DNA of 46,930 bases from Clostridia bacterium (GTDB lineage: Bacteria; Bacillota; Clostridia; Oscillospirales; Acutalibacteraceae). Below, piece by piece: positions 11,061 to 32,051 of the stretch. The notes under the pieces were generated by a model that saw only the letters and a program-made list of their open reading frames with translations, searched no databases and was not told the DNA's origin. The DNA lies in assembly GCA_017436285.1 (NCBI GenBank), contig JAFSDL010000002.1:1-46930 (forward strand), in the 5' to 3' direction. A program made the translations under genes and the position numbers. Every line of letters starts with the position of its first letter. Within the stretch, counting starts at the first letter, position 1.

Positions 11061-11130
11061 TCGATTAGCTGCCAGATGCCAGTCGCCAGCTACCAGATGA
11101 TAGCAGATAGCAAATAGTAATTAGTAAAAG
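11061..11130 (+). repeat. Heptanucleotide tandem array 1
   Basis: From 11068 the sequence falls into 7-nt units: GCTGCCA GATGCCA, then GTCGCCA, GCTACCA, GATGATA, GCAGATA, GCAAATA, GTAATTA, GTAAAAG. Units drift from NNNGCCA to NNNNATA but keep the 7-nt phase. Similar arrays lie at 22525, 22666, 28301, 28749, 31841 and ~32020. Confidence 0.75.
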
Positions 11131-11143
11131 TATTGTGAAGCCT

Positions 11144-11240
11144 ATCATCCCTGTTTCATCTTTGATGAAATAGGGAGGGGGACCGCGTCAGCGGTGGTGG
11201 GTAGTCCCGTAAAGAAGTTCCCTTTGTAAAAGTATCGCAA
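11144..11240 (+). repeat. Structured ~97-nt intergenic element, copy A
   Basis: A hairpin CCCTGTTTCATC-TTT-GATGAAATAGGG, then GGGGG, a second hairpin ACCGC-GTCA-GCGGT, then GGTGGG, a CCCGTAAAGA block and GTAAAAGTAYCGCAA. Copy B at 22185-22282 has the same order with different but paired stems. It continues into a further hairpin ACCATCGCTTGCGATGGT at 11246-11263, which is identical to the second hairpin of copy B. Confidence 0.75.
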
Positions 11241-11317
11241 CCTTTACCATCGCTTGCGATGGTGGGTGGTACAAAACTGTAAAGCAATATATCAATTTTG
11301 AAAGCAAGGTGAACCCT

Positions 11318-12004
11318 ATGACAAACACCAAACAAATTAACACTAATTTAAAACCTGCCATTGTTTTTCTTTCTTCTTTGGTAGCGACAGGAATATTCAT
11401 TTTCTCAACCTTGTTTGCAACCTCTGTTTGTACAAAATGGTATGGCTTGCTTATAGGCGTTGCGCTGATGCTGGTAGCCATTCCCATTCATTGCCAAGGT
11501 GAGAAATCAAAGGTTTACTATGTTTTGAGCTTTCTTGTTAATTCTGTTGCCAATGGTTTTTCCCTATCGGCTTTTTACAATGACCAAAATGAAGCACTGA
11601 ATGTTGGCGAAATGCTAAAAGCCTGTGTTTTGCCAATTGCGTTACTGTTTGTTGTTTTTCTTTTAGTTCAGTTCTTTCCTGAAATTAAGAAATATATCTG
11701 CATTTCAGGTGTTGTTATAGGCTGTGTAATGCTTGTTGCTTTCATTGTATTGTCTGTGAAGCAGGGTGGAGTGTTTTTTAGTTTCGGGTTCTTTGCAATA
11801 TTACTTTCGCTCTTTTCGCATTGTGTAATGGGGGTTACCGCAAATAACAAACGAGACGGTTTAAGGGATATTTCCTTTGGCAGCTTCGGAGCATTTATAA
11901 TAATATCAATTGTGGTGTTGTTTGTTATAAGTGATGGTGAAATTCTTGAAGGCTTTGATGTGGGTGGCGGAGAGAGTAGTAAAAAATCAAAAAGGAATAA
12001 ATAA
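11318..12004 (+). CDS. Integral membrane protein, unknown
   Basis: 228 aa with about six hydrophobic segments and a short charged tail (ESSKKSKRNK). I recognise no family. The ATG at 11318 is chosen over GTG 11309 because AAGGTGA lies 5 nt upstream of it. It stands alone between a repeat-filled gap and a bidirectional terminator. Nothing in the context suggests a job. Confidence 0.6.
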   Translation: MTNTKQINTNLKPAIVFLSSLVATGIFIFSTLFATSVCTKWYGLLIGVALMLVAIPIHCQGEKSKVYYVLSFLVNSVANGFSLSAFYNDQNEALNVGEMLKACVLPIALLFVVFLLVQFFPEIKKYICISGVVIGCVMLVAFIVLSVKQGGVFFSFGFFAILLSLFSHCVMGVTANNKRDGLRDISFGSFGAFIIISIVVLFVISDGEILEGFDVGGGESSKKSKRNK

Positions 12005-12012
12005 AAACCAAT

Positions 12013-12054
12013 CACTCGGTTAAGAAAAAACTTTTCTTAACCGAGTGACTTTTT
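12013..12054. terminator. Bidirectional terminator between convergent genes
   Basis: A perfect 16-bp stem (CACTCGGTTAAGAAAA at 12013-12028 with its complement at 12032-12047), loop AAC, flanked by T5 on the right and A5 on the left. It serves the membrane protein gene (+) and the aminotransferase operon (-). Confidence 0.9.
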
Positions 12055-13222
12055 ATAACTCATTTATAAACTCTTCTATTCTCTCAAGTGCTTTGATTAT
12101 ATGCTCCGTTGAGTAGCAGTAAGATGCTCTTACGAACCCTTCTCCGCCTTTGCCGAAAGCAGTTCCGGGAACAACCGCAACCTTTTTGCTTTCTAAAAGC
12201 TTTTCGCAGAATTCTTCGCTGGAAAGACCCGTGCTTTTAATGCAGGGGAAAGAGTAAAACGCCCCTTTAGGTTCTCTGCAAGTAAGCCCTAATTTGTTAA
12301 AGCCGTTAACAATGAGTCGTCTTCTGCGGTCATATTCTGCTCTCATTTTCTCGATTGCTTCGTCACCATTTCTCAGAGCTTCAACCGCCGCATATTGCGA
12401 GGTGGTGGGAGCGCACATTATTGCATATTGGTGAATTTTAATAACCTGTTGCATAATCGCTTCGGGACCACAAGCGTAGCCAAGTCGCCAGCCTGTCATT
12501 GAATATGCCTTGGAAAAACCGTTTACTGTAATGGTTCTTTCCCACATACCGTCAATTGAAGCAGGGGAAATATGTATGTAATCTCCGTAGGTTAATTCTG
12601 AATAAATTTCATCTGAAATAACAATAATGTTTGTTCCTTTGAGAATTTCTGCAATTTTTTCCAAATCCTCTTTTTCCATAACCGCACCTGTGGGGTTGCA
12701 GGGGTAGGGGAGAATTAGCGCTTTTGTTTTCTCTGAAATTGCGTTTTTCAGCTCTTCTGCGGTAACCTTAAAATTATTTTCTGCTTTGGTTTCAATAATA
12801 ACGGGTACACCGCCTGCAAGGCTTGTTATGGGCTCATAGCAAACATAGCTTGGCTGTGGAATAATAACCTCGTCACCGGGGGCAACAATGGCTCTGATTG
12901 CGCCATCAATAGCCTCACTGCCACCAACGGAAACAAGTATTTCCGTTTCGGGTTTGTATGTAATGTTGTATCGTCTTTTAAGATAAGCAGAGATTTCTTT
13001 TCTCAGTTCAATTGTACCGCGGTTTGCGCTGTATTTTGTTCTGCCTCTTTCAAGGGAGGTTATACCTGCTTTTCTGATGTGCCAGGGAGTCTGAAAATCG
13101 GGCTCACCAACACCTAAAGATATAACGTCCTCCATTGTGGCTGCAATATCAAAAAATTTTCTTATGCCCGAGGGCTTGATTTGGGTTACAGCAGGGTTTA
13201 AAACCTTGTTATAATCAATCAT
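12053..13222 (-). CDS. Class I/II aminotransferase (aspartate aminotransferase type)
   Basis: 389 aa, PLP fold type I. The PLP lysine is Lys238 in GFSKAYSMTGWRLG. YPCNPTGAVM and SDEIYSELTY supply the cofactor Asn and Asp/Tyr. Family members transfer amino groups between amino acids and 2-oxo acids; Asp or aromatic substrates are likely, but the exact one is not readable. The start at 13222 (MIDYNKVLNPAV) is supported by AGGGGGCAG. It overlaps the Lrp gene by 8 nt, so the two are probably translationally coupled and the regulator may respond to this enzyme's substrate. Confidence 0.88.
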   Translation of the reverse strand: MIDYNKVLNPAVTQIKPSGIRKFFDIAATMEDVISLGVGEPDFQTPWHIRKAGITSLERGRTKYSANRGTIELRKEISAYLKRRYNITYKPETEILVSVGGSEAIDGAIRAIVAPGDEVIIPQPSYVCYEPITSLAGGVPVIIETKAENNFKVTAEELKNAISEKTKALILPYPCNPTGAVMEKEDLEKIAEILKGTNIIVISDEIYSELTYGDYIHISPASIDGMWERTITVNGFSKAYSMTGWRLGYACGPEAIMQQVIKIHQYAIMCAPTTSQYAAVEALRNGDEAIEKMRAEYDRRRRLIVNGFNKLGLTCREPKGAFYSFPCIKSTGLSSEEFCEKLLESKKVAVVPGTAFGKGGEGFVRASYCYSTEHIIKALERIEEFINEL

Positions 13223-13700
13223 AAATGAACTGCCCCCTGGTATCTTCCTCAGTGTCAAAAAGCTCAACATCAAGCTCTTTATAGCGGCGCATAACAAAAT
13301 GAGTTGCAGTAGATGTTACAGAGTCAATTGTTGCAAGCTCTCTTGCAACAAAGCGAGCCACATCCTGAAGTGTTTTACCCTTAACAACAACATTAAGGTC
13401 ATAAGAGCCGGACATAAGATAAACGGATTCAACCTCGTGGAAGGACATAACCTTTTCAGCAACCTCTTCAAAGCCTGAATCTGCTTTGGGCACAACATTA
13501 AGCTGAACAATGGCGGAAACATAGGCATCATCATATTCATCCCAGTTGATAACAGCCTTGTAGCCGCGAATCATACCGTCCTTTTCAAGCTGTTCAATTT
13601 CATTTTTTACTTCATTTTCAGTAACACCGAGCATTGTTGCAATCTGGTCGTTTGTGTAACGGGCGTTCTTAGCTAAAAGCTTTAAAATTTCATATTTCAT
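13215..13700 (-). CDS. Lrp/AsnC family transcriptional regulator
   Basis: 161 aa. An N-terminal winged helix (~1-55: LLAKNARYTNDQIATMLG) is followed by an alpha-beta RAM/AsnC ligand-binding domain (~65-140). These proteins bind amino acids and assemble as dimers to octamers. It sits second in the DUF436-Lrp-aminotransferase operon and overlaps the aminotransferase by 8 nt, so control of amino-acid metabolism, possibly of its own operon, is inferred. Confidence 0.9.
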   Translation of the reverse strand: MKYEILKLLAKNARYTNDQIATMLGVTENEVKNEIEQLEKDGMIRGYKAVINWDEYDDAYVSAIVQLNVVPKADSGFEEVAEKVMSFHEVESVYLMSGSYDLNVVVKGKTLQDVARFVARELATIDSVTSTATHFVMRRYKELDVELFDTEEDTRGQFIYD

Positions 13701-13712
13701 AATAAAAAATCC

Positions 13713-14255
13713 TTACATTAAATCTTCGTTATAGTGTGCTCTTTCGCCACCGATGAATTTTGGTCTTACTCTTGCGGCAGTGAGGACAGCATTTCCAATT
13801 TTGTTGTTTTTAAGCCTTACGGGAACAGCAACTTTCTTAAGATGCATACCGATTAAGGTTGAGCCGATGTCAAGCCCTGCATCTGCCTTGATTTCCTCAA
13901 GTGCAACGGGATTTTTAAAGGTCTTGTATGCAACAGTTGCAAATGAACCGCCCGCTTTTGGTTGGGGAACAACATTAACATATTCACCATTAGGAACTGC
14001 ATCCTCTTCAACAATAATTGCCCTGTTAAGATGCTCGCAGCATTGTGCCGCAACGAAAACTCCATATTCATTTGCAGCCTCGTATATGCCCTCAAAAATT
14101 GCATTTGCAGTTTCTGGGGAGGAATTAGTACCTATTTTATCACCGATTACCTCACTTGTTGAGCAACCGATAACAAGAATCTGTCCTTTTTTCAATTTTC
14201 CGATTTCAATAATTTCCTTTGCGGCGGAATAAGCCTCTTGTTTAATTGTGTTCAT
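13713..14255 (-). CDS. ywlG: DUF436 / TIGR01440 family protein (YwlG-like)
   Basis: 180 aa, the usual size of the YwlG family. Conserved-type stretches: GCSTSEVIGDKIG, CCEHLNRAIIVE, VPQPKAGGSFATVAY, DIGSTLIGMHLK. The function of the family is unknown to me. It is first in a three-gene operon with an Lrp regulator and an aminotransferase, 12 nt before the Lrp start, with SD TAGGAGTG. Confidence 0.88.
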   Translation of the reverse strand: MNTIKQEAYSAAKEIIEIGKLKKGQILVIGCSTSEVIGDKIGTNSSPETANAIFEGIYEAANEYGVFVAAQCCEHLNRAIIVEEDAVPNGEYVNVVPQPKAGGSFATVAYKTFKNPVALEEIKADAGLDIGSTLIGMHLKKVAVPVRLKNNKIGNAVLTAARVRPKFIGGERAHYNEDLM

Positions 14256-14285
14256 AACAACACTCCTATTTTGTTTTCACCCTGT

Positions 14286-14313
14286 ATTTTACACGAATTT
14301 TTAAAAAAGTAAA
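14286..14313 (-). promoter_or_regulatory. Promoter of the ywlG-lrp-aminotransferase operon
   Basis: On the minus strand: TTTACT (14313-14308), 16 nt, TAAAAT (14291-14286), preceded by TG. It is about 30 nt upstream of the start codon and back-to-back with the ftr-trx promoter. Confidence 0.55.
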
Positions 14314-14322
14314 GGCTTGTTA

Positions 14323-14351
14323 TTGATATGTTGATAAATTCTTGCTAAAAT
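14323..14351 (+). promoter_or_regulatory. Promoter of the FTR-like/thioredoxin operon
   Basis: TTGATA (14323-14328), 17 nt, TAAAAT (14346-14351) preceded by TGC (extended -10). The leader is about 30 nt. Confidence 0.75.
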
Positions 14352-14386
14352 ATAGAGGTGAAAACAATTTATATAGGGGTGTTACT

Positions 14387-14587
14387 ATGGCAGTTAAGCT
14401 CAATGAAGATAAAGAGGTTGTTGCAAGAATAAAGGATGGACTTAAAATGAAGGGGGGCTATTGCCCCTGCAGGCTTGAAAGAACCGAGGAGAATAAATGC
14501 ATCTGCAAGGAATTCCGTGAGCAGATTGCAGATCCGGATTTTGAGGGCTACTGCCACTGTATGCTTTATTATAAATCAAAAGACTGA
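14387..14587 (+). CDS. Ferredoxin-thioredoxin reductase catalytic-subunit-like protein
   Basis: 66 aa. All six cysteines of an FTR catalytic chain are present as CPC (26-28), CIC (38-40) and CHC (56-58), the set that holds a 4Fe-4S cluster next to the redox disulfide. Spacing is C-x9-C and C-x15-C, whereas plant FTR has x16 and x8, and the protein is much shorter than plant FTR. It likely passes electrons from ferredoxin to the thioredoxin encoded 13 nt downstream. ATG 14387 is preceded by AGGGGTG; the longer upstream frame lacks motifs. I see no variable-chain partner. Confidence 0.8.
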   Translation: MAVKLNEDKEVVARIKDGLKMKGGYCPCRLERTEENKCICKEFREQIADPDFEGYCHCMLYYKSKD

Positions 14588-14600
14588 GAGGAAAATAAAT

Positions 14601-14912
14601 ATGGCAGAATTAACAATTACAAGTGCAAACTTTGAAGAAAAAGTTTTAAAAAGTGAAAAGCCCGTTTTAGTTGATTTCTGGGCAACCTGGTGCGGTCCTT
14701 GTCAGATGATAGCACCAACAATTCACGAAATTTCAGAAGAAAGAACAGATATTGTTGTTGGTAAGGTTAATGTGGATGAGGAAATGCAGCTTGCAATGCA
14801 GTTCGGCATTTCAAGTATTCCAACACTCCTTGTTTTCAAGGATGGAAAGCTCGTTAATCAGGGCGTAGGTCTTCTTCCGAAGGCAAGTGTTTTAAAGTTG
14901 ATAGATGGCTGA
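14601..14912 (+). CDS. trxA: Thioredoxin
   Basis: 103 aa, standard single-domain length. The active site is WCGPC, the cis-Pro motif is SSIPTLLVFKDG, and FWATW precedes the active site. It reduces cytoplasmic protein disulfides. GAGAGGA is the SD. It forms an operon with the FTR-like gene, which suggests ferredoxin-driven reduction and not, or in addition to, NADPH-driven reduction. A terminator follows directly. Confidence 0.95.
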   Translation: MAELTITSANFEEKVLKSEKPVLVDFWATWCGPCQMIAPTIHEISEERTDIVVGKVNVDEEMQLAMQFGISSIPTLLVFKDGKLVNQGVGLLPKASVLKLIDG

Positions 14913-14916
14913 ATTT

Positions 14917-14948
14917 CAGAATCCGCTTCGGCGGATTCTGTTATTTTA
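14917..14948 (+). terminator. Terminator after trxA
   Basis: CAGAATCCGC-TTCG-GCGGATTCTG: a 10-bp stem with a stable TTCG tetraloop, followed by TTATTTTA. Confidence 0.9.
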
Positions 14949-14979
14949 TTACATATTTATTACAAATCAGCCACATTGT

Positions 14980-15008
14980 TTGACAGTTGACAATATTTAT
15001 TGTATTAT
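14980..15008 (+). promoter_or_regulatory. Promoter of the tmk-apbE run
   Basis: TTGACA (14980-14985), 17 nt, TATTAT (15003-15008). A second TTGACA overlaps at 14987. No terminator is visible until after apbE, so this may drive all seven genes. Confidence 0.8.
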
Positions 15009-15076
15009 TAATGAGTAGAATTGGAATAATATGATGTAATATTGCGGTCATATTTAGAAGGGTATGTAAAAGTATT

Positions 15077-15739
15077 ATGTTTATTGATTTAGAGGGGCTT
15101 GACGGTTGCGGCAAAACAACCCAGACCGAGCTTGTCTGCAAAAGGCTTGCCGAGGATGGAATTGATTTTAAAAAAATCAAGCTTCCCGATTATGAAAGCG
15201 ATTCAAGTATTCTTGTAAGAAAATATCTTGCAGGGGATTTCGGTAAGAATGCAGGGGATGTTAATGCCTATGCAACCTCTGTTCTTTACGCAGCGGACAG
15301 GTTCGCCTCATACACAGAAAAATGGAAAAAGGAATATCTTGAGGGCACATTGATTTTTGCAGACCGCTATACTCCCGCCAATGCAATTTATCAGATGACA
15401 AAGCTCAATAAATCAGAGTGGGACGAGTACCTTGATTGGCTCTTTGATTTTGAATATAACAAAATCGGTATTCCCGCACCTGACAAGGTGATTTTCCTTG
15501 ATATGCCCGTTGAGGTTTCTCAAAGGCTTATGACTCAACGCTATGAGGGTGACGAAAATAAAAAGGATGTTCACGAGGCAAATGTTGATTTTCTCAATGC
15601 TTGTCGTGAGGCTGCTCTTTATGCAGCAGATAAATGCGGCTGGGTAATTGTTCCTTGCTCAGAAAACGGTGAGCCTCTTTCAATTGAGTCAATTAACGAT
15701 ACAGTTTATAAAATTTTGCTTGACACTATAAAGAAGTAA
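15077..15739 (+). CDS. tmk: Thymidylate kinase
   Basis: 220 aa. The P-loop is EGLDGCGKTT (6-15), followed by the dTMP-site DRYTPAN and a lid region with QRYEGDENKKD. It phosphorylates dTMP to dTDP. The ATG at 15077 has only a distant SD (AAGGG, 14 nt). It is first of a seven-gene co-directional run, with 6 nt to the next gene. A divergent N-terminal extension is absent. Confidence 0.92.
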   Translation: MFIDLEGLDGCGKTTQTELVCKRLAEDGIDFKKIKLPDYESDSSILVRKYLAGDFGKNAGDVNAYATSVLYAADRFASYTEKWKKEYLEGTLIFADRYTPANAIYQMTKLNKSEWDEYLDWLFDFEYNKIGIPAPDKVIFLDMPVEVSQRLMTQRYEGDENKKDVHEANVDFLNACREAALYAADKCGWVIVPCSENGEPLSIESINDTVYKILLDTIKK

Positions 15740-15745
15740 TTCATT

Positions 15746-16630
15746 ATGCTTGACTTTCAACCTGTAAAAATAGAAGACAGAGAATTGATTTTAAACAATA
15801 TTCCCGAAAGTGCTTCTCAGATTTGTGACTTTTCCTTTGGTAATATTTTCTGTTGGAGTGTGGGGGAAAATACCCAAATTGCTCAGAAGGATGGATTTGT
15901 TTTTCTTCGCTCACGCTTTAGCGGAGTTAAAAGCTATGCTTTCCCTTGGGGAAAGGGCGATATAAGAAATGCTCTTAAGATAATTGAAGAGGATGTAAGG
16001 GAAAGAAATGCAGATTTTTCTTTTTATTGCTTAAGCGAAGAGCAAGCAGAAATTCTTAAGAATATCTATGGTGAAAGGCTTCATCTTCAGGAGCAAAGAG
16101 ATTTTTTTGATTATGTTTATCTTCAGAAAAATCTTGCAACCTTAAGTGGCAGAAAATATCATTCCAAGAAAAACCACGTTAATTCCTTTTGTAAGAAGCA
16201 TAGCTTTTCTTATGAAGAATTAAACGAAAGCAATTTAAAGGAATGCCTTGAGTTTTCTCATTTGTGGCATAAAAGAGGTGAGAGAAACCCGAAGCTTGAT
16301 GAAGAAATGCTTGTTATTGAAAAAGCCTTTGAGCATTTTAGTGAATTGCATTTAAGCGGTGCGCTTTTAAGGGTGAATGGCAAAATAGTTGCCTTTGCTA
16401 TGGGGGAGAAAATGCCTGACGGTAAAACCTATTGCACCCATTTTGAAAAGGCATCTCCCGAATATCTTACTGCTTATGCGGTAATCAATAAATTATTTGC
16501 AGAAAATTCCCTTTCGGAATTTGAATATATAAACCGCGAGGATGATGCAGGGGTCGAGAATTTAAGAAAAGCCAAAACCTCATATCATCCTGAATATCTT
16601 GTGAAAAAATACTATGGAAAAATCCTTTGA
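15746..16630 (+). CDS. DUF2156 / phosphatidylglycerol lysyltransferase-type domain protein
   Basis: 294 aa. The layout (a start like FQPVKIEDRELI, a central region rich in aromatic and charged residues, and a C-terminal YLVKKYYGKIL) matches soluble DUF2156 proteins, which have two GNAT-like folds and are related to the catalytic part of MprF. No membrane segments are seen, so this is not full MprF. Substrate unknown: an aminoacyl- or acyl-transfer is expected. It overlaps the GNAT gene downstream by 17 nt. Confidence 0.75.
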   Translation: MLDFQPVKIEDRELILNNIPESASQICDFSFGNIFCWSVGENTQIAQKDGFVFLRSRFSGVKSYAFPWGKGDIRNALKIIEEDVRERNADFSFYCLSEEQAEILKNIYGERLHLQEQRDFFDYVYLQKNLATLSGRKYHSKKNHVNSFCKKHSFSYEELNESNLKECLEFSHLWHKRGERNPKLDEEMLVIEKAFEHFSELHLSGALLRVNGKIVAFAMGEKMPDGKTYCTHFEKASPEYLTAYAVINKLFAENSLSEFEYINREDDAGVENLRKAKTSYHPEYLVKKYYGKIL

Positions 16631-17441: not shown

Positions 17442-17454
17442 TGAGGTTTTTAAA

Positions 17455-18578: not shown

Positions 18579-18584
18579 TTTTGG

Positions 18585-20054: not shown

Positions 20055-20055
20055 T

Positions 20056-22184: not shown

Positions 22185-22282
22185 ATCATCCCTGTTTTGT
22201 GAAGCAAAATAGGGAGGGGGACCATCGCTTGCGATGGTGGTGGGTTGCCCCGTAAAGATACGCCTTCGTAAAAGTACCGCAA
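22185..22282 (+). repeat. Structured ~97-nt intergenic element, copy B
   Basis: The same order as copy A (11144): hairpin CCCTGTTTTG-TGAAG-CAAAATAGGG, G-run, hairpin ACCATCG-CTTG-CGATGGT, GGTGGG, CCCGTAAAGA, and GTAAAAGTACCGCAA. Both stems differ from copy A but remain paired. It fills the gap between hemW and the Cys-rich gene. Confidence 0.75.
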
Positions 22283-22524: not shown

Positions 22525-22561
22525 AGTCGCCAGTCGCCAGTCGCCAGTAAGCTTCGCAAGG
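22525..22561 (+). repeat. Heptanucleotide array 2 with AGCTTCGCAA end module
   Basis: Three perfect AGTCGCC units (22525-22545), then AGTAAGC and TTCGCAAGG. The AGCTTCGCAA end recurs at three other arrays whose heptamers differ. The array is followed by hairpin repeat copy 3. Confidence 0.8.
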
Positions 22562-22573
22562 ATAATCAAACCC

Positions 22574-22597
22574 GTAAGGTACAGGCTTGCCTGTACC
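22574..22597 (+). repeat. 24-nt hairpin repeat, copy 3
   Basis: Identical in sequence to copy 1 (3227): GTAA then GGTACAGG-CTTG-CCTGTACC, followed by ACAGAAC. Confidence 0.8.
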
Positions 22598-22665
22598 ACA
22601 GAACAAACTGACCAAGGACACTGTATGGAAGGGTCTCAACCGGTTCGCAAGGAAAAGATGCCGGC

Positions 22666-22721
22666 GGTTAGCATTTAGCGTTCTGCACTTTGCGTTTTGC
22701 ATTCTGCATTCTGCATTTATA
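22666..22721 (+). repeat. Heptanucleotide array 3
   Basis: Eight units in phase: GGTTAGC ATTTAGC, GTTCTGC ACTTTGC, GTTTTGC ATTCTGC, ATTCTGC ATTTATA. The consensus is NTTNTGC. With array 2 and hairpin copy 3 it fills the 315-nt gap 22495-22809. The stretch 22598-22665 shows no other clear structure apart from GGTTCGCAAGG at 22642-22652. Confidence 0.75.
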
Positions 22722-23279: not shown

Positions 23280-23305
23280 TTCGGATTTCACCTAAAAAAC
23301 TGTCC

Positions 23306-23338
23306 AAAAATTGTTATAATATATTATACAATTTTTTG
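23306..23338 (+). terminator. Terminator after bofA
   Basis: AAAAATTGT (23306-23314) pairs with ACAATTTTT (23328-23336) around an AT-only stem, followed by T. It is weak in GC but long. Confidence 0.6.
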
Positions 23339-23379
23339 CTTTGTTACAGTTGATTTTAGCGTGTTTTTAGTGTAATATG

Positions 23380-23385
23380 TATAAT
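23380..23385 (+). promoter_or_regulatory. -10 element of glgP
   Basis: A consensus TATAAT preceded by ATG at 23377-23379. No good -35 is seen at 16-18 nt. GGAGG at ~23422 is the SD before the ATG at 23434. Confidence 0.5.
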
Positions 23386-23433
23386 CGAACAGTAAAAAAC
23401 TATGGTTTTTAAAAATATTTTTGGAGGATTTGT

Positions 23434-25842: not shown

Positions 25843-25873
25843 ATTATTTTAGCACTTTTAACAAAATTGAAAT

Positions 25874-25911
25874 AAGTCAGTGCATTTGATAAAAATGCAC
25901 TTGACTTTTTT
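25874..25911 (+). terminator. Terminator of glgP
   Basis: AAGTCA-GTGCATTT (25874-25887) pairs with AAATGCAC-T-TGACTT (25893-25907, one bulge), followed by T. Its 3' arm contains the TTGACT that acts as -35 for the next gene. Confidence 0.85.
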
Positions 25912-25929
25912 CGCTTTTTAGAGTAATCT
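25901..25929 (+). promoter_or_regulatory. Putative promoter of paralogue 1
   Basis: TTGACT (25901-25906), 17 nt, TAATCT (25924-25929). The same -35, spacing and -10 occur before paralogue 2 (27116-27144). TAATCT is a poor sigma-A -10, so the match between paralogues carries most of the weight. Confidence 0.5.
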
Positions 25930-26014
25930 AAAGATACTGAAAAATAATGTGTTATTGTATATTGTTTTTTTAGTAGTATATGCAGTACACAAAGTTGAAA
26001 GGGGTATTATACCA

Positions 26015-27031
26015 ATGAAAAATTCAGATATGAAGGTTATTGCTATAATTCTCAGTATAGCACTTTTCTTCACAATCGTAACAAGCAACGCAGTTTCCAT
26101 CGCTTCTGTTGTTTTCCTTGCAAAGGATGCAGCAACAGTTCAGGAAGGTTCTGCAGGTACAGCAGGTGATGCAACAACACCTGATGCAGGTACAGCAACA
26201 ACTCCTGATGCAGGTACTGCAACAACTCCTGATGCAGGTACTGCAACAACTCCTGATGCAGGCACAGCAACAACTCCCGATGCAGGCACAGCAACAACTC
26301 CTGATGCAGGCACAACACCTGATGCAGGTACAACACCTGATGCAGGCACAACACCTGATGCAGGCACAACTCCCGATGCAAACAAACCTGCTGAAGATGC
26401 AAACAAGCCTGCTGTTGACGACAATCCTATTATGAAGGATCCTTTCGCAGCATACTCAAAGGCTGCTAACGCTATCCACACAAAGGGTATTGCAGGCTAC
26501 AACAAAATCGGTTGGCAGACACCTCTCAAAATAGAAGGTCTTGGTCTTCTTGACAGCGTTATTATGCCTATCCTTGAAAAGTTTATGACAACAGAGGATG
26601 AAGCAGAAGTAAAGGTTAACGCAAAAGGTTCAGATGATGCTAAAAACCGTATGCCTGCAAGTAACTGCAGCAAAAAGTACATCAAGAGTGCAACAGCTGT
26701 TAAAGAGGGTAGCAATTATAAGGTTACAATCGTTTTGGTTGACTTCACTAACCCCAGTTATAGTGATCCTGATGGTCTTCAGTTAATGTCAAGAGAATTC
26801 CTTGACTATGCTGACGTAGAGAAAGAAGCTAAAAACATTGCTATCGTTAAGAGCCTCGAAGGTCAGATTGTTTACAAGGACTATACAATCACAGCTATCA
26901 TGACAGCAGACGGCAAGTTCGAAAGCATTACTCATAGGGGTATTGGCTATATCAAAGCTAACCTTAACGGTTCAATCAATGCTACTGGCGAACTCGAGTT
27001 CAACGCTAAATACACAGACTTCAAATATTAA
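26015..27031 (+). CDS. Membrane-anchored extracytoplasmic protein with TTPDAG repeats (paralogue 1)
   Basis: 338 aa. One N-terminal hydrophobic segment (~7-35, ending SIASVVFLAK) could be an anchor or uncleaved signal. A low-complexity linker (~50-125) has nine PDAG units: five with TATT spacers, then four with TT. The linker is followed by NKPAEDANKPA and a ~200-residue C-terminal domain ending in DFKY. The C-terminal domain resembles that of the next gene (GY-N/K-K-x, TT-x-E-AE, D-x-x-NP). Function unknown. The start at 26015 is supported by AAAGGGG; upstream codons in the open frame overlap the leader. Confidence 0.75.
   Translation: MKNSDMKVIAIILSIALFFTIVTSNAVSIASVVFLAKDAATVQEGSAGTAGDATTPDAGTATTPDAGTATTPDAGTATTPDAGTATTPDAGTATTPDAGTTPDAGTTPDAGTTPDAGTTPDANKPAEDANKPAVDDNPIMKDPFAAYSKAANAIHTKGIAGYNKIGWQTPLKIEGLGLLDSVIMPILEKFMTTEDEAEVKVNAKGSDDAKNRMPASNCSKKYIKSATAVKEGSNYKVTIVLVDFTNPSYSDPDGLQLMSREFLDYADVEKEAKNIAIVKSLEGQIVYKDYTITAIMTADGKFESITHRGIGYIKANLNGSINATGELEFNAKYTDFKY
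26174..26380 (+). repeat. In-gene tandem repeats (24-nt, then 18-nt units)
   Basis: Five 24-nt units encoding PDAGTATT then four 18-nt units encoding PDAGTT. Synonymous third-base changes (GGT/GGC, ACT/ACA, CCT/CCC) distinguish units. Unit number may vary between strains by slippage. Confidence 0.85.
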
Positions 27032-27043
27032 TTTGAGATACAT

Positions 27044-27071
27044 AAAACCGACTCGAAAGAGTCGGTTTTTT
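27044..27071 (+). terminator. Terminator of paralogue 1
   Basis: AAAACCGACTC-GAAA-GAGTCGGTTTT followed by further T; an 11-bp stem with a GAAA tetraloop. Confidence 0.92.
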
Positions 27072-27115
27072 CTTTTGCACAATTAAAATTCAATTCTTTT
27101 GTATAATATATGGTA

Positions 27116-27144
27116 TTGACTTTTTATGGAAATTGGTTTAATCT
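27116..27144 (+). promoter_or_regulatory. Putative promoter of paralogue 2
   Basis: TTGACT (27116-27121), 17 nt, TAATCT (27139-27144), the same layout as before paralogue 1. Both -35 hexamers are followed by TTTT. Confidence 0.5.
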
Positions 27145-27196
27145 ATAAATGTTAATAAAATGCATAAAAATGCAAATATGAAAGAGGTTATAGGTA

Positions 27197-28252
27197 ATGA
27201 AAAGCACAGATTTAAAAATTATTGCTATCATTCTTGCAGTTGCTCTTGTTTTCACAGTAATCGCAAGTAATGCAGTTTCAGTTGCTTCTATCGTTTTTCT
27301 CGCAAAGAACGATATAGTAGAGGCTCCCGCAGGCGAGCAGACTCAGCAGCAGTCTCAGCAGTCTCAGCAACCCCAACAACAGCAGCAGTCTCAGCAGTCA
27401 CAACAGCAGGTTCAGCAAACTGTAGAAACAACTGCTCCCGCAGCTAACAACAGTTCTTCAACAGTTGAAACAACTGCTCCTGCAGGCAATAGCGGTAACA
27501 CAACTCCTGATGCAAACAAGCCTGCTGATAACAACGGCGGTTCAACTGCTGCAAAGAAAACTGATAAAGAAGTTCTCGAAATCTACACAACTCTTATGAA
27601 CAAGGCTAAAAAAGATAAGCCCGGTTATAAGAAGGTTGAATATCAGGAGCTTCCCGGCGATGCTGCAAACCGTCAGATTTCAAAGGGTGCTAATTTTGTT
27701 GATACTCTCCTCAATCTTGTTACAAACACATTAGATCTTTTAACAACTAAGGAAGAAGCAGAAGCTTCCCCGGAAATCGTTGAAAAGGGTGGCGATATGA
27801 GATGGTTCCCTGTTTATAAATGTGAAAAGGGTTGCTATCTTACAGATGTAAGTGCTATTGAAAGCACCAAGTACGAAGACCTTGGCAACGGTAAAGCAAG
27901 AATCACAATCGAACTTAAAGATGAAGCTAATCCCGAGCCCATGGCAGAAGGTGCATCAACATCTCCCAGTAAAACTGGTGCAATGTTCTCACCTCTTTCA
28001 AAAGCTGATATTGATAACACAATCAATGGTGGTGTCGTTCAGGCAGTTATCAAGGAAGTTACATATAACCTCACCTACCACGATTGCAAAGCAGTTGTAG
28101 AATACGATACAAAAACAAACGAAATCATTAAGCTTGAGCAGTATATGAATGTTGCTATTCAGGGCGGTGGTAAGATTTTCGGTGTTTCTGAAATCAAAAT
28201 CGACAAACAGGAACTCTTCAACACAATGATTATCACAGATTTCAAATATTAA
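27197..28252 (+). CDS. Membrane-anchored extracytoplasmic protein with Gln-rich linker (paralogue 2)
   Basis: 351 aa. The N-terminus (MKSTDLKIIAIILAVALVFT..SNAVSVASIVFLAK) is nearly the same as in paralogue 1. The linker differs: a Gln/Ser run (~52-78) and two VETTAPA blocks, then TTPDANKPAD, which is shared with paralogue 1. The C-terminal domain (~130-351) is homologous and also ends DFKY; it has two Cys (CEKGC) near 216-220, whereas paralogue 1 has one (SNCSKK). Function unknown; a surface or binding role is inferred from the anchor and linker. GAGGTTATAGG is the SD region. Confidence 0.75.
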   Translation: MKSTDLKIIAIILAVALVFTVIASNAVSVASIVFLAKNDIVEAPAGEQTQQQSQQSQQPQQQQQSQQSQQQVQQTVETTAPAANNSSSTVETTAPAGNSGNTTPDANKPADNNGGSTAAKKTDKEVLEIYTTLMNKAKKDKPGYKKVEYQELPGDAANRQISKGANFVDTLLNLVTNTLDLLTTKEEAEASPEIVEKGGDMRWFPVYKCEKGCYLTDVSAIESTKYEDLGNGKARITIELKDEANPEPMAEGASTSPSKTGAMFSPLSKADIDNTINGGVVQAVIKEVTYNLTYHDCKAVVEYDTKTNEIIKLEQYMNVAIQGGGKIFGVSEIKIDKQELFNTMIITDFKY

Positions 28253-28264
28253 TTGAATCTATTT

Positions 28265-28296
28265 TCCCCTTACCAACTCGGTAAGGGGATTTTTTT
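28265..28296 (+). terminator. Terminator of paralogue 2
   Basis: TCCCCTTACC-AACTC-GGTAAGGGGA followed by seven T. Confidence 0.92.
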
Positions 28297-28300
28297 ATAA

Positions 28301-28340
28301 ATGCAGAATGAGGAGTGATGAATGCGGAATGAGCTTCGCA
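28301..28340 (+). repeat. Heptanucleotide array 4 with AGCTTCGCAA end
   Basis: ATGCAGA ATGAGGA, GTGATGA, ATGCGGA, then ATGAGCT running into TCGCAAAA. It has the same end module as arrays 2, 5 and 6. It starts the 584-nt non-coding gap 28253-28836. Confidence 0.75.
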
Positions 28341-28373
28341 AAAGGTTAAGATAGAGGAATAAAGTTGATGTGT

Positions 28374-28492
28374 GGGGGACCTGCCTTCGAAGGCGGGGGG
28401 ACCGTCTTGTTTGTGTAAACCTCATTGATATGTTTCAGGCGAGTCGGTTTCTCTCTGTTTGCGATACAGTTCAGCGGAACGGTGGGTGGTTC
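28374..28492 (+). repeat. Degenerate G-run/hairpin element related to copies A and B
   Basis: GGGGGACCT, the perfect palindrome GCCTTCGAAGGC (28383-28394), GGGGGGACCGT, then ~80 nt of unique sequence and ACGGTGGGTGGTTC. The GGGGGACC...GGTGGGTGGT frame matches copies A and B, but the interior is different and the relation is tentative. Confidence 0.4.
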
Positions 28493-28515
28493 TCGACGCG
28501 AGCCCCCGAGCGTCG

Positions 28516-28699
28516 TTGAAGCATTAGCTTCAATTGTAATGCACCGTAAGGTACAAGCTTGCTTGTACCAAAGAATATAAAAATTCAAGCAATAAGTTTA
28601 TCGCAGTTTCACCTTGCGGTGAAATGTTGCTTTGCAACAAAGAACCTTCCGGCTTTTGACATACAAGTATGTCAAAACCCACCTTCCTTTGAAGGAAGG
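28516..28699 (+). repeat. Battery of six consecutive hairpins, includes 24-nt repeat copy 4
   Basis: TTGAAGC-ATTA-GCTTCAA (28516-28533); repeat copy 4 GGTACAAG-CTTG-CTTGTACC (28550-28569, unit 28546-28569); TTTCACC-TTGC-GGTGAAA (28607-28624); TGTTGC-TTT-GCAACA (28625-28639); TTTTGACATAC-AA-GTATGTCAAAA (28654-28677); CCTTCCTT-TG-AAGGAAGG (28682-28699). Each stem is perfect. No coding frame explains them. Confidence 0.75.
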
Positions 28700-28736
28700 C
28701 ACAGATAAAACTCAATTTTATTGCACTATATTTACT

Positions 28737-28776
28737 CCTTGCGAAGCTCTGGTGACTGGCGACTGGCAACTGGTTA
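28737..28776 (-). repeat. Heptanucleotide array 5 with AGCTTCGCAA end
   Basis: On + : CCTTGCGAAGCT, then CTGGTGA CTGGCGA, CTGGCAA CTGGTTA. On the minus strand this reads CCAGTCG-type heptamers ending in AGCTTCGCAAGG, the same arrangement as array 2. It overlaps the -35 of the next gene's promoter. Confidence 0.75.
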
Positions 28777-28805
28777 TTGCCTTTTTATTCCTTGTGTGGT
28801 ACAAT
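28777..28805 (+). promoter_or_regulatory. Promoter of the YhhN-family gene
   Basis: TTGCCT (28777-28782), 17 nt, TACAAT (28800-28805) preceded by TGG. The leader is about 25 nt, with GGTGAGG as SD. Confidence 0.7.
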
Positions 28806-28836
28806 ATAATAAACAATTATGCGGTGAGGGATAGAA

Positions 28837-29568
28837 ATGACATTGTGGATTTTATTTGGCTTGTGCCTGGTGGTTGAGGTCGTTTGTGTGCCTTGGTATT
28901 TAAAGGCTCTCTGGCCTGAAAAATGCACCAAATCACTTGTATTGAAAATGGTATGTGCAACAATGTTTGTAAGCGTTGGCGTGCTTTCAATGTTTATTTC
29001 AAACAACTTCTCTTCTTATGCAATAACAATGCTTGTTGGTCTTGTTTTTGGCTGGATAGGAGATTATTTCCTGCACGCCAAGCCCTCAGATGTATATTTC
29101 GTAACAGGCTTTTTAAGCTTCCTTATAGGGCACTTTTTCTATATTGGTGCTTATGTGAAGGCTCTTCCAAAGCTTTTCCCTGACTATAAAATGCTCAATG
29201 CACCTGAGCTTATTATTGGTGCCGTGGTTCTTGTTTTAGCCTTTATAATGCTGAAGCTTACAAAGATGAAAATGACGCCTAAAATTGTTGCTTTTGGTAT
29301 CTGGCTTTATTTCATAATTCTTACCTTTATGTTCGTGAAAGCAACCTCTTTAGGCTACCACCAATGGCAAAGCGGTGCACAGGGCGGAATATTACCGTTC
29401 CTAGTTTTAACTTTTGGCTCATTCTGCTTCGTTCTTTCCGATGCATCCCTGGGTGTTATAATGTTTGCAGACCAAAGAAAGAATTATCCATTGAAAATAT
29501 TCAACATTCTTACATATTTCTGGGGACAGATAATGCTTGCTTCCTCAATACTTTTCATAAATGCCTGA
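28837..29568 (+). CDS. YhhN/TMEM86 family membrane protein (lysoplasmalogenase type)
   Basis: 243 aa with about eight membrane segments. GWIGDYFLHA and FLIGHFFYIGAYV are the family signatures with the conserved Asp and His. Eukaryotic TMEM86B hydrolyses the vinyl-ether bond of lysoplasmalogens; clostridia do make plasmalogens, so the role is plausible but unproven here. It overlaps or abuts the PatB-like gene. Confidence 0.8.
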   Translation: MTLWILFGLCLVVEVVCVPWYLKALWPEKCTKSLVLKMVCATMFVSVGVLSMFISNNFSSYAITMLVGLVFGWIGDYFLHAKPSDVYFVTGFLSFLIGHFFYIGAYVKALPKLFPDYKMLNAPELIIGAVVLVLAFIMLKLTKMKMTPKIVAFGIWLYFIILTFMFVKATSLGYHQWQSGAQGGILPFLVLTFGSFCFVLSDASLGVIMFADQRKNYPLKIFNILTYFWGQIMLASSILFINA

Positions 29569-29581
29569 AAGAAGATTAATT

Positions 29582-30751
29582 ATGTTTGATAAAGCTTTTA
29601 ACCGCAAAAACAGTGGTTCATATAAATGGGATACAACCGTTCCCGAAGGCTTAATTGAAAGGGGGGCATATCCTCTTTCAGTTGCCGATATGGAATTTCA
29701 GACTCCCCTTGAGGTAAGAGAAGCTATAAAGGATTTTACCGAAAAAGGCTTCTTTTGTTATACGGATGCGGATAAGGCATATCGCGATAGTGTCCGTGAG
29801 TTTCTTGCCCGTCGCCATAATTTTGAAATAGAAAATGATTGGATTACCTGCGTTGGTGGTGTGGTTTTCACAATTAATACCGCAATAAGAGCCTTTACAA
29901 ATGAGGGCGATAAGGTTATAATCCAATCTCCCGTTTATTATCCCTTTTCAAAATCCATTCTTAACAATAAAAGAATTATTGCAGATAATCCTCTTGTTCC
30001 TGAGGGCAATACTTATAAAATGAATTTTCCTGATCTTGAAAAAATTGCAGCTCAGGATGATGTTAAATTAATGCTTCTTTGCAGTCCTCATAACCCTGTG
30101 GGCAGAGTATGGACTAAGGAAGAGCTTAAAAGGGTAGGGGAAATCTGCCTTAAAAATAATGTTGTTCTTGTAAGCGATGAAATTCATTTTGACCTTGTGA
30201 GAAAAAATCAGGAGCATATTGTAATCAATAATGTTGATGACAGCTTCTCAAAAAACACGGTTATCTGCACTGCAGTCAGCAAAACCTTTAACCTTGCAGG
30301 TCTGGGCACATCAAATATTATTATTGCCGACAAAGCCTTGAGAGAAAAATTTCAAACGCAATTATCTGCAGATGGCTATAGCTGTATCAACTGCGTTTCC
30401 CGCCCTGCAACAATTGCCGCATACACAAAATGCGATTATTGGATTGATGGTGTAAACGACTATATTGAAGAGAATATACGGCTTGTAAATGATATTTTGA
30501 GCGATATTCCTCAGATAAAAATTTATGATTGTCAGGGTACATATTTAATGTGGCTCGATATGAGAGAATTGGGAATGAGTGATGATGAGCTTGATTTGTT
30601 CCTGCAGAATGAGTGCGGAATAATTCAGGACCCGGGCTTCTGGTTCGGTGAAAACGGTAAGGGCTTCACAAGGCTTAATGTTGCTTGCCCGAGAGATATT
30701 TTGGAAAAATCAATTAAGGAATTAAGAAATCAAATCTTAAAAAGAGTGTGA
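29582..30751 (+). CDS. patB: PatB/MalY-type PLP C-S lyase (cystathionine beta-lyase family)
   Basis: 389 aa. FNRKNSGSYKWD near the start and LSVADMEFQTP are the signature of MalY/PatB enzymes. The PLP lysine is Lys234 in VSKTFNLAGL; CSPHNPVGRVW and SDEIHFDLV provide the cofactor Asn and Asp. It likely cleaves cystathionine or cysteine-type C-S bonds to pyruvate, ammonia and a thiol. ATG 29582 (MFDKAFNRK) is preferred over the in-frame ATG at 29561, which lies within the upstream gene; AAGAAG is a modest SD. Confidence 0.9.
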   Translation: MFDKAFNRKNSGSYKWDTTVPEGLIERGAYPLSVADMEFQTPLEVREAIKDFTEKGFFCYTDADKAYRDSVREFLARRHNFEIENDWITCVGGVVFTINTAIRAFTNEGDKVIIQSPVYYPFSKSILNNKRIIADNPLVPEGNTYKMNFPDLEKIAAQDDVKLMLLCSPHNPVGRVWTKEELKRVGEICLKNNVVLVSDEIHFDLVRKNQEHIVINNVDDSFSKNTVICTAVSKTFNLAGLGTSNIIIADKALREKFQTQLSADGYSCINCVSRPATIAAYTKCDYWIDGVNDYIEENIRLVNDILSDIPQIKIYDCQGTYLMWLDMRELGMSDDELDLFLQNECGIIQDPGFWFGENGKGFTRLNVACPRDILEKSIKELRNQILKRV

Positions 30752-30755
30752 TAAT

Positions 30756-31100
30756 ATGAAAAAAATAATATCGGTTCTTTTATGTGCAGTTTTTTTATTC
30801 AGTGCATTTTCTTTTTCTGCTTTTGCGGTTAAAGATAATACGGAAACAGAAAAAGAAACAGAGCTTGTTCTTGAAATTGATGTCAATAAAAGATATACGG
30901 ATATTTATGATGAAACCGACGGTATGGTAACAAGCCTGGAAGAGAAAAAAGAACTAACCGATAATCAGAAAACTGTTTATATTGCAATTCTTTGTGCCGC
31001 ATTGGTAGTTTCTGTTGTTATTCTTGCAGTTTCTCTCAAAAAAGTTCCCAAAGAGGAAGATATTGATATTTCAGGACAGAATAAAATCAAAAAAAGATAA
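30756..31100 (+). CDS. Small secreted-type membrane protein, unknown
   Basis: 114 aa. A Sec signal peptide (MKKIISVLLCAVFLF.., cleavage likely after FSAFA near residue 24), an acidic extracytoplasmic segment (~25-72), one membrane helix (~75-97: TVYIAILCAALVVSVVILAV) and a short basic tail (KKVPKEE..KKR). No family recognised. It is 4 nt after patB and 20 nt before ttcA, so probably co-transcribed. Confidence 0.65.
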   Translation: MKKIISVLLCAVFLFSAFSFSAFAVKDNTETEKETELVLEIDVNKRYTDIYDETDGMVTSLEEKKELTDNQKTVYIAILCAALVVSVVILAVSLKKVPKEEDIDISGQNKIKKR

Positions 31101-31120
31101 AAAAATAAGGAAAAGCTTTT

Positions 31121-31840
31121 ATGAGAAAAATTTTAAGCAGAACAAGAGCTGCCGTGGATGATTATAAAATGATTCAGAATGGCGATAAAATCGCCGTTGG
31201 TGTATCTGGCGGTAAGGATTCCGTAATGCTTTTAAAGGCATTGTGCGATTTAAAGCGCTTTTATCCTGCAGATTTTGAGATAGTTGCAATAACTCTTGAT
31301 ATGCGCTTTGATAAAAAGGATGGCGACTTTTCTCCAATTCAGAAGCTTTGCGATGAATACGGAATTGAATATGTAATTCAGAAAACTGATTTGTATGAAA
31401 TCATTTTTGAGGTAAGAAAAGAGGAATGCCCCTGTTCACTTTGCGCCAGAATGAGAAGAGGAATTCTTCACGATACTGCAAAGCAATTAGGATGCAATAA
31501 GATTGCTTTAGGTCACCATCTTGACGATGCGGCAGAAACCTTTATGATGAATCTTCTCATAGAAAGTCGTATCGGTTGCTTTGCCCCTGTAACATACCTT
31601 TCAAGGCGAGATATCACAATGATAAGACCTCTCATATATGTTCGTGAATCTGCTGTAGAACAGGCTGTGGAACGCCTTAATTTACCCATTATAGAAAGCA
31701 AATGCCCTGCAAATGAAAAAACCAAAAGAGAGGATGCAAAAATTCTTCTCCAAAGGCTCTCAGAAGAATATGGCGATGTTCCCGAAAGAATAATAGGGGC
31801 AATGCAAAGGGCGAGTATTGATAGATGGGAAGTTAATTAA
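31121..31840 (+). CDS. ttcA: tRNA 2-thiocytidine biosynthesis TtcA-type ATPase
   Basis: 239 aa. The PP-loop SGGKDSVML (~29-37) and the CSLCARMRRGIL site (CxxC), with a further Cys in SKCPANEKTKR, match TtcA, which uses an Fe-S cluster and ATP to thiolate C32 of tRNA. GHHLDDAAET is also typical. Some clostridial relatives act on other tRNA positions, so the exact nucleotide is inferred. GGAAAAGC region as SD. Confidence 0.85.
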   Translation: MRKILSRTRAAVDDYKMIQNGDKIAVGVSGGKDSVMLLKALCDLKRFYPADFEIVAITLDMRFDKKDGDFSPIQKLCDEYGIEYVIQKTDLYEIIFEVRKEECPCSLCARMRRGILHDTAKQLGCNKIALGHHLDDAAETFMMNLLIESRIGCFAPVTYLSRRDITMIRPLIYVRESAVEQAVERLNLPIIESKCPANEKTKREDAKILLQRLSEEYGDVPERIIGAMQRASIDRWEVN

Positions 31841-31880
31841 ATGTGGAATGCGGAATGCGGAGTGAGGAATGAGCTTCGCA
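31841..31880 (+). repeat. Heptanucleotide array 6 with AGCTTCGCAA end
   Basis: ATGTGGA ATGCGGA, ATGCGGA GTGAGGA, ATGAGCT then TCGCAAAA. It starts directly after the ttcA stop (TAA at 31838-31840). Confidence 0.8.
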
Positions 31881-31901
31881 AAAATTTAAAAATATAAAAC
31901 T

Positions 31902-31941
31902 AAAAAGATTCAAGACGATTATTTTTGTCCTGAATCTTTTT
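31902..31941 (+). terminator. Terminator downstream of ttcA
   Basis: AAAAAGATTCA-A-GAC pairs with GTC-C-TGAATCTTTTT around a 10-nt loop (one internal mismatch). Confidence 0.75.
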
Positions 31942-31999
31942 GCTTGTCTTTATTAAATAAAAAAGAAAGTGTTGTTGCAAGAATAACTAATACAATGTT

Positions 32000-32051
32000 T
32001 GGAAGCGAAGCTTCCCCTTCATTCCTCACTCCTCACTCCTCATTCCTCACT
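32000..32051 (-). repeat. Heptanucleotide array 7 (minus strand)
   Basis: On the minus strand: AGTGAGG AATGAGG, AGTGAGG AGTGAGG, AATGAAG, then GGGAAGCTTCGC. It is the array 4/6 type in the opposite orientation, with a changed end module that now forms the palindrome GGAAGCGAAGCTTCC. Confidence 0.7.

Follow-up and report, generated by a model that had tools for sequence, protein, structure and literature searches.

Heptanucleotide arrays lie scattered between the genes of an uncultured Clostridia bacterium (GenBank assembly GCA_017436285.1), keeping a strict period of 7 nt while their units drift, and the question that they raise is what makes them. We analyzed a stretch of 46,930 nucleotides (contig JAFSDL010000002.1, positions 1-46930; hereafter the window), which is contig C1 of a 2.05-Mb draft genome in 63 contigs (G000, 83.7% complete). 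An earlier note, made from the letters alone, had placed seven arrays here and attributed them to one mechanism and not to chance slippage; all seven are present where it put them. We propose, with a probability of roughly 0.78, that they are the terminal arms of small intergenic elements that lack an open reading frame (ORF) and are related to the intervening sequences (IVSs) of 23S rRNA genes. One window protein has matches in gut-derived metagenome-assembled genomes labeled Oscillospiraceae or Clostridia. The nearest relative found is SIG568 (93-95% in this same protein), and G008/SIG568 was used as the sister-genome reference.

To quantify the periodicity, we scanned the window and stretches L017-L036 of the same genome (440,312 bases, ~21% of G000) for runs in which s[i]=s[i+p]. 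Coding and intergenic sequence were separated by an ORF mask so simple that some "coding" arrays perhaps lie in spurious ORFs (e.g., window 22525). At a score of at least 14, intergenic sequence held 20 arrays of period 7 and none of any other period from 4 to 21, an excess of the kind that the earlier note had suggested looking for; coding sequence held seven of period 7. At threshold 11, the intergenic count rose to 33, against 0-1 at periods 5, 6, 8, 9, 10, 11, and 13, and the whole sample contained 50 arrays at the lower threshold. Tandem Repeats Finder (score of at least 30) recovered six of the seven window arrays (11070, 22525, 22681, 28749, 31840, 32019), while the array at 28300-28333 is too degenerate for that program, yet readable by eye. 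With strict 7-nt tandem units, intergenic and dispersed, the window arrays correspond to heptanucleotide short tandemly repeated repetitive (STRR) sequences. The excess is absent from 20 genomes of other genera and families in the order (one array), and the 51 loci surveyed for the order show no clear excess either: Six arrays have period 7, and each remaining period between 5 and 15 has 0-5.

The arrays are not scattered singly. The earlier note overlooked that they face inward as inverted pairs (22525/22689, 28300/28749, and 31840/32019), so that the seven amount to three paired elements, here called B, C, and D, plus one lone array at 11067, for which no inverted partner was found (Table 1). 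Among neighboring arms less than 450 bp apart (n=35), 22 were inward, five ++, five --, and three outward. When element D is folded as RNA its arms pair (-75.5 kcal/mol, z -9.84, 0/200 shuffles), and a small element at L030:3339-3440 likewise folds with its own arms paired (z -4.97). Read in a common orientation, most units have the form ART-NNNN (AGTGAGG, AGTTAGG, AATGCGG, AATTCGG, AATGCAA, AGTTGAA, AGTGGCA, AGTCGCC, and others). ART stands on one strand in 33 of 34 G000 array consensus heptamers, compared with a mean of 14.3 and a maximum of 22 in 2,000 letter shuffles. In other congeners the ratio is 15/17 (shuffle mean 10.5; 3 of 2,000 shuffles reached it), and in genera outside that of the window ART is not enriched (6/8 versus 4.9 in shuffles).

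Many arrays run into an end module, in which a short stretch terminating in GG leads to a TNC-loop hairpin and then to ATTATAA. The stems vary yet remain complementary (GACC/GGTC, GTC/GAC, GTGC/GCAC, GGAAGC/GCTTCC, GGCAC/GTGCC, GGC/GCC), and of 34 hairpins detected automatically, two of which (L024) look spurious, 30 have TNC loops, that is GNA on the opposite strand (TGC 16, TTC 11, TAC 3). Among distinct arms having two or more ART units, all but one (77 of 78) place ART at precisely 8+7k nt outside the stem. A MAFFT alignment of the arms put the stems out of register, and no claim here rests on it. The pattern AGTTTCGGGN{6,22}ATTRTA occurs in 16 of 22 genomes of the genus, at 126 places versus 18 for a reversed control. 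An alternative to the TNC-loop hairpin is AGCTTCGCAA, which the earlier note regarded as the constant end of the arrays. Four of its six exact copies in the window do adjoin arrays (22550, 28332, 28739 on the minus strand, and 31872) and the other two (2069, 25568) are inside long ORFs, but it is only one of eight end modules sorted here; the end at 32000, taken for a variant of it, is a different module, the hairpin GGAAGC-GAA-GCTTCC. G000 has 82+80 copies of the core of AGCTTCGCAA, GCGAAGCT, counted irrespective of distance to an array, and 4+5 of the reversed pattern. As an exact 20-mer, the module sorted as E1 was found in two of 394 genomes of the order, G000 and G113, the G113 copy having no array; at L066, in another genus, the E1 module occurs together with arrays.

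The arms acquire a partner in related genomes. Two matches to the arm pattern, L167 (G006) and L164 (G016), consist of inverted arms flanking a single ORF of ~118 aa, and both ORFs are Pfam PF05635, the 23S rRNA-intervening sequence protein (IVP/S23; E 1.6e-28 and 2e-27); these elements contain no other ORF. By sequence, 2RLD is the closest solved structure. At L208 (G020), arms of the window type flank a PF05635 ORF, with AGTGAGG units, TCGGGACCTGCGGTC and AGCTTCGCAAA on one side and inverted AGTGAGG units with GCGTCGCAGACCC on the opposite side. Of the 22 genomes of the genus, 20 have PF05635, as do 73 of 398 genomes in a phylum sample, 60 of these 73 over the cut-off. G000 itself has two matches, on contigs C63 and C57, both outside the window and the sampled stretches. 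Across G000, G008, and congener stretches, arms separated by 450-4,000 bp were also searched for gene-bearing elements between them; this gave three candidates, and in the two whose ORFs were listed (the third is L123) no gene was recognized as mobile.

We assembled 84 PF05635 loci (30 from the genus search, the 30 best matches of the phylum search, and 24 plasmid records out of 27 that matched) and looked for period-7 arrays within 450 bp of the gene. At the working threshold, arrays stood on both sides in 11/30 genus, 10/30 phylum, and 20/24 plasmid loci. Pooled, 60/84 had them on either side and 41/84 on both, whereas periods 5, 6, 8, 9, 10, 11, and 13 gave 0-2 both-sided loci of 84. A looser threshold raised these counts to 64 and 52, with the seven other periods still at 0-2. 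Ordinary genes had arrays on both sides in 3/370 cases in G000, 1/247 in the genus, and 0/308 in the order. In the 41 both-sided loci, the right heptamer is an inverted copy of the left, with a distance of 0 in 18, 1 in 14, and 2 in 9 (rotation allowed, nearest arrays used). The mean distance of 0.78 compares with 2.99 in 2,000 shuffles of the right arm (minimum 2.46), and the inverted fit beats the direct one in 34 loci and loses in four. The plasmid counts include some non-independent loci, since L247/L251/L252 and L259/L260 are nearly identical.

The association spans phyla. PF05635 has arms on both sides in Bacillota, Cyanobacteriota, Spirochaetota, and Chloroflexota. Among its plasmid hosts (Spirochaetota, Bacteroidota, Bacillota, Cyanobacteriota, and Chloroflexota), both-sided arrays occur in Spirochaetota, Cyanobacteriota, and Chloroflexota, a Bacteroidota plasmid (Bernardetia) has an array on the left only, and the Bacillota one (Monoglobus) has none at threshold. 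Period-7 arrays flank PF05635 at Nostoc and Planktothrix plasmid loci in the same architecture, and the comparison with cyanobacterial heptamers drawn in the earlier note was a useful pointer. Heptamer distance drops with protein identity, from ~2.8 at 40-60% to 0-0.8 at 80% or more, among 40 proteins recovered by a motif filter, the high-identity pairs being mostly from cyanobacterial plasmids and some at shared sites. The isoelectric point is above 8 in 31 of 39 PF05635 proteins within the length filter.

Several PF05635 genes have recurrent neighbors. Seven of the 24 plasmid loci (L244, L253, L254, L259, L260, L261, L262) have CRISPR, restriction-modification, DISARM, or helicase/methylase-type neighbors, for example in the cas2-cas1 or the hsdS-hsdR interval. 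In two congeners (L193 and L209) the element is beside a tmRNA gene (ARAGORN), and in two others (L164 and L182) it lies just upstream of the same reading frame, which starts MRT.KLGK. A weak PF05635 relative occurs four times in G777 (L271-L274), within a longer repeat identical over at least 2.8 kb; L271 contains an RT-9 RNA (Rfam RF03080).

Armed inserts are also found inside rRNA genes. In G594, two 23S rRNA genes share 341 identical bases on one flank, and on the opposite flank they match at 99.9% over 2,676 bases. Between these flanks, L276 bears a heptamer-armed insert of 85 nt, while L275 shows a plain helix tip of 16 nt; the insert folds as one hairpin (z -6.75). L275 was assigned to large-subunit (LSU) rRNA by Rfam and L276 by identity. 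Among 20 array-bearing phylum loci, two (L230 and L240) lie in LSU rRNA and 18 outside it; L266, L275, and L269 are further loci in LSU rRNA, L269 being at the same place as L240. Armed inserts in 23S rRNA and armed intergenic loci can thus share architecture and protein. The window itself has no LSU rRNA match, and its elements have no S23/IVP ORF, which is found in congener elements with similar arms. The elements that were folded (element D, the L030 element, and the G594 insert) have complementary stems as in IVSs; the arms of B and C are of unlike units. A search of the window and six loci for known RNA families returned two tRNAs only. The link between heptamer arms and PF05635/IVS elements is well supported.

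We compared nine G000 array or arm sites by eye with G008/SIG568. At four (window 11067, 22525, 31840; L029 3953) an array is present in the sister too, with different units, at one (window 28300) it shares the interior and the arm is decayed, and at four (L029 7416, 11780, 16080; L030 3339) it has no array. At the site of the lone array, G008 has a different array, AGTTGAA/AGTGGCA, with a hairpin; at that of element D, SIG568 has a short different array, and the distant relatives L037, L038, L039, and L072 have none. Relative to L030, G008 is missing an element of ~100 bp and has ~8 bp in its place. On three Nostoc plasmids the element lies inside a region that is, on other plasmids, a single gene annotated as cytosine methyltransferase. 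The L247 element replaces L280 618-945, the alignment ending at most 7 nt from the outer array ends in L247, and the L253 element stands between cas2 and cas1 where L282 has 61 other bases. The Nostoc flanks are 76-91% identical, so later changes are possible at both junctions. The elements are likely to be mobile. At L029 7416 and 11780, G008 (L095, G008:C68) has instead of the armed elements a similar terminator-like hairpin, TGACCCT...AGGGTCA.

Such turnover is not what would be expected of binding sites for a global or post-transcriptional regulator, a role suggested for Geobacter tandem-repeat pairs (PMC2700814) and for Beggiatoaceae TAACTGA (PMC4679880). The opposite-strand pairs at variable distance in Geobacter (PMC2700814) favor this possibility, but armed inserts occur in 23S rRNA genes too, and the gene-orientation classes do not differ clearly: Arrays occupy 9/40 convergent, 15/103 co-directional, and 5/42 divergent intergenic regions (p 0.38), and a preference for gene orientation was accordingly rejected. 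We consider regulator sites highly improbable. A preference for terminator T-runs was rejected as well (10/39 outer flanks versus 16% of control positions, p 0.08).

The same comparisons bear on polymerase slippage, by a polymerase favoring 7 nt, as the sole process making and keeping the repeats (Mrazek et al. 2007, as cited in PMC4679880 and PMC4692102). Slippage predicts neither the element-sized differences between copies, nor the inward pairing (22/35) and fixed hairpin register (77/78), nor PF05635 ORFs between matching inverted arrays (41/84); 20 genomes of other genera and families in the order show no period-7 excess. It does fit the drifting units and variable lengths of the arrays and the 7-nt bias known in other bacteria, and Xanthomonas repeats mostly retain their gene context between two species (PMC4692102). 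On balance we regard it as unlikely. The idea of one mechanism instead of chance slippage is supported by the strict period, the register, the inverted pairing, and the arms on PF05635 elements.

A known mobilizer of palindromic repeats was also sought. One possibility is that the elements are akin to repetitive extragenic palindromes and bacterial interspersed mosaic elements (REP/BIME) and are mobilized by a REP-associated tyrosine transposase (RAYT) or an IS200-type Y1 transposase; mosaic palindromes, inverted pairs, and many copies would fit. The single Y1_Tnp gene of G000 (L088 1417-1935, G000:C21) is ~300 bp from an AGTCGCC array, and array-bearing G009, G010 (below cut-off), and G016 also have a match. 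From its sequence, however, we take the G000 copy to be probably a self-contained gene of IS200 type; array-bearing G006, G007, G008, G013, G017, and G018 have no Y1_Tnp match, and arm counts do not track Y1 counts (Spearman 0.16, p 0.49). On this distribution, from a search for PF01797 in G000 and 22 genomes of the genus, we disfavor a RAYT or IS200 mobilizer, and a REP/BIME origin seems to us scarcely credible.

We return to the reading of the arrays as arms of IVS-related elements. At each element end, heptamers of mostly ART-NNNN type stand in tandem, their register fixed relative to a short hairpin or to AGCTTCGCAA; the two ends are oriented toward one another and can pair into one long hairpin if they have matching units. 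Full-length members carry between the arms one ORF, encoding the PF05635 four-helix-bundle protein, and the three paired elements of the window would be non-autonomous copies or remnants: Having no ORF, they would need an IVP in trans unless they are remnants. For insertion we infer the following course. The IVP, probably ring-shaped, may bind the arms and draw the ends together, as the basic proteins and a relative reported as a pentamer or pentameric ring (PMC4990558) suggest; the folded element would then be copied into a new site and displace a short piece of the target. Arm length may change by slippage, the units drifting along with the protein.

A number of observations weigh against this interpretation. 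Elements B and C, two of the three window pairs, have arms of unlike unit class, as does L029 7416/7573, and over 18 arm pairs similarity is modestly above shuffles (93/5,000 reached the value). No both-sided arrays were found at 43/84 PF05635 loci at the working threshold and 32/84 at the looser one; inward ART was present in 74 of 116 arrays at such loci and lacking in 42; and the hairpin modules searched for appeared at only 5/32 genus loci (L164, L167, L193, L208, L211). Three PF05635 genes in G470 23S genes (L266-L268) show no arrays, and neither does L197, the one of the two G000 genes inspected in this incomplete genome. One arm pattern and PF05635 copy number are weakly related (Spearman 0.40, p 0.07, 22 congeners), and two of eight published heptamers, GGGACCG and GACAGAT, lack ART, which the other six have on one strand (TAACTGA, GGGAATC, GGGGATT, GGGGACT, GTGATTA, MTYCTGA). 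No nuclease, transposase, or reverse transcriptase was identified, DDE transposase families not having been searched. No target-site duplication was seen in G594, L030/G008, L247/L280, or L253/L282, where the flanks have diverged in all except G594, and the empty sites show target DNA replaced.

These last points also weigh against miniature inverted-repeat transposable elements (MITEs) of an ordinary DDE insertion sequence, with PF05635 merely a passenger. Terminal inverted repeats (of unlike units in B and C), many ORF-less copies, and empty sites would suit a MITE, but no target-site duplication was seen, and PF05635 is the only ORF of the L164 and L167 elements, with the same limit on the DDE search; we judge this very unlikely. 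A wider proposition is tentative, with the odds slightly against it: that tandem-heptamer inverted arms and a PF05635 protein, with no recognizable transposase, define a class of mobile elements inserting by short-target replacement, that rRNA IVSs are its copies in rRNA genes, and that intergenic heptamers of cyanobacteria, Xanthomonas, and others are its arms or remnants. Statements on Xanthomonas and Nostoc in PMC4692102 are partly against it.

Table 1. Heptamer arrays and end modules in the window
Feature	Position	Strand	Description
Lone array	11067..11127	+	degenerate heptamers AGCTGCC AGATGCC AGTCGCC AGCTACC ...
Element B, whole	22525-22717		paired arms
Element B left arm	22525..22548	+	(AGTCGCC)3 AGT
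Element B left end module	22550..22559	+	AGCTTCGCAA
Element B right arm	22681..22717	-	inverted; inward-read unit AATGCAG/AATGCAA; unit class unlike left arm
Element C, whole	28300-28775		paired arms
Element C left arm	28300..28333	+	AATGCAG AATGAGG AGTGATG AATGCGG AATGAG
Element C left end module	28332..28341	+	AGCTTCGCAA; AAGTTTTACAA here in SIG568 (L053)
Element C right end module	28739..28748	-	AGCTTCGCAA, inverted
Element C right arm	28749..28775	-	inverted, AGTTGCC AGTCGCC AGTCACC AG; unit class unlike left arm
Element D, whole	31840..32051		paired arms; arms pair when folded as RNA
Element D left arm	31840..31873	+	AATGTGG AATGCGG AATGCGG AGTGAGG AATGAG
Element D left end module	31872..31881	+	AGCTTCGCAA
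Element D right end module	32001..32015	-	hairpin GGAAGC-TTC-GCTTCC, sorted as "E3"
Element D right arm	32019..32051	-	inverted, AATGAGG AGTGAGG AGTGAGG AATGAG

Other repeats were noticed as well. Several armed elements contain a separate hairpin repeat, GTAAGGTACAGGCTTGCCTGTACCACAG, one of the most frequent intergenic repeats (window 22570-22610 and 28544-28575, and further places in G000). Another mosaic repeat consists of TATCCCTCTTTTT or CCTGTTT, a hairpin, AGGGAGGGGGACC, a variable hairpin, and GGTGGTGGG (window 11140-11260, 22190-22260, and 28370-28500; G008 L098 1100-1500). At L020 9862-10256 there are four tandem copies of a composite of ~115 bp (two heptamer arrays plus an end module), copies 1-3 each being followed by a CACTGGCTTGCCTGTG hairpin. 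Tandem repeats that look in-frame occur at window 26171-26414 and 27336-27409, within ORFs 25949-27031 and 27197-28252.

In the open-access literature searched, with most subscription papers outside its scope, no paper joins intergenic heptamer arrays to PF05635. The literature examined, as far as its available parts go, deals separately with the S23/IVP of rRNA IVSs and with the heptamer repeats known from several groups of bacteria; in the available part of PMC5524665, a four helix bundle protein is mentioned only as an ORF of phage regions. The earlier note knew of no described counterpart, which is partly contradicted by heptamers in a Coxiella IVS (PMC4990558) and by Xanthomonas pairs (PMC4692102). 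Heptamers before S23 and convergent pairs are thus already in print, and joining them is new as far as our search shows. Reading the arrays as arms may account for similar repeats in several other bacterial groups. If heptamer repeats and S23/IVP do belong to one element family, the origin of the former and the role of the latter become testable in culturable cyanobacteria, and this would hint at DNA movement by means of a small helical-bundle protein and repeat arms, with no known transposase.

How do the window arrays compare with known systems? REP/BIME and MITEs are likewise small, palindromic, mosaic, and without ORF, but no link to RAYTs was found here, no target-site duplication was seen, and the ends are tandem heptamers. 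The "global regulator binding sites" of Geobacter metallireducens are tandem repeats of 7 or 8 nt, paired on opposite strands with variable spacing, and differ in being interpreted as regulator sites (PMC2700814). Beggiatoaceae TAACTGA and cyanobacterial STRRs are intergenic tandem heptamers, reported also from cyanobacteria and Bacteroidetes, although TAACTGA is interpreted as a site for a translational regulator (PMC4679880). The heptamers of Xanthomonas (GGGAATC) and Nostoc/Anabaena (GGGGA(C/T)T) share period 7, degenerate units, and many copies; in Xanthomonas two neighboring arrays converge in 70 and 75 cases, with no gene described between them in the available text, and few array pairs are reported for Anabaena/Nostoc; the paper finds no general link to mobile elements and discusses G-quadruplexes (PMC4692102). 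The likely counterparts are the 23S rRNA IVSs with an S23/IVP gene. The elements of the window differ from them in being intergenic and without ORF and in having extra hairpin modules. In IVSs, a PF05635 ORF lies between inverted complementary ends that can fold into one hairpin, and the present analysis found heptamer-armed inserts in 23S genes. Several IVSs are reported to be excised by RNase III, their mobility has been proposed earlier, and their function and origin are called unclear; the Coxiella IVS, like the arms described here, has tandem heptamers, in strain-variable number, before its S23 ORF (PMC4990558).

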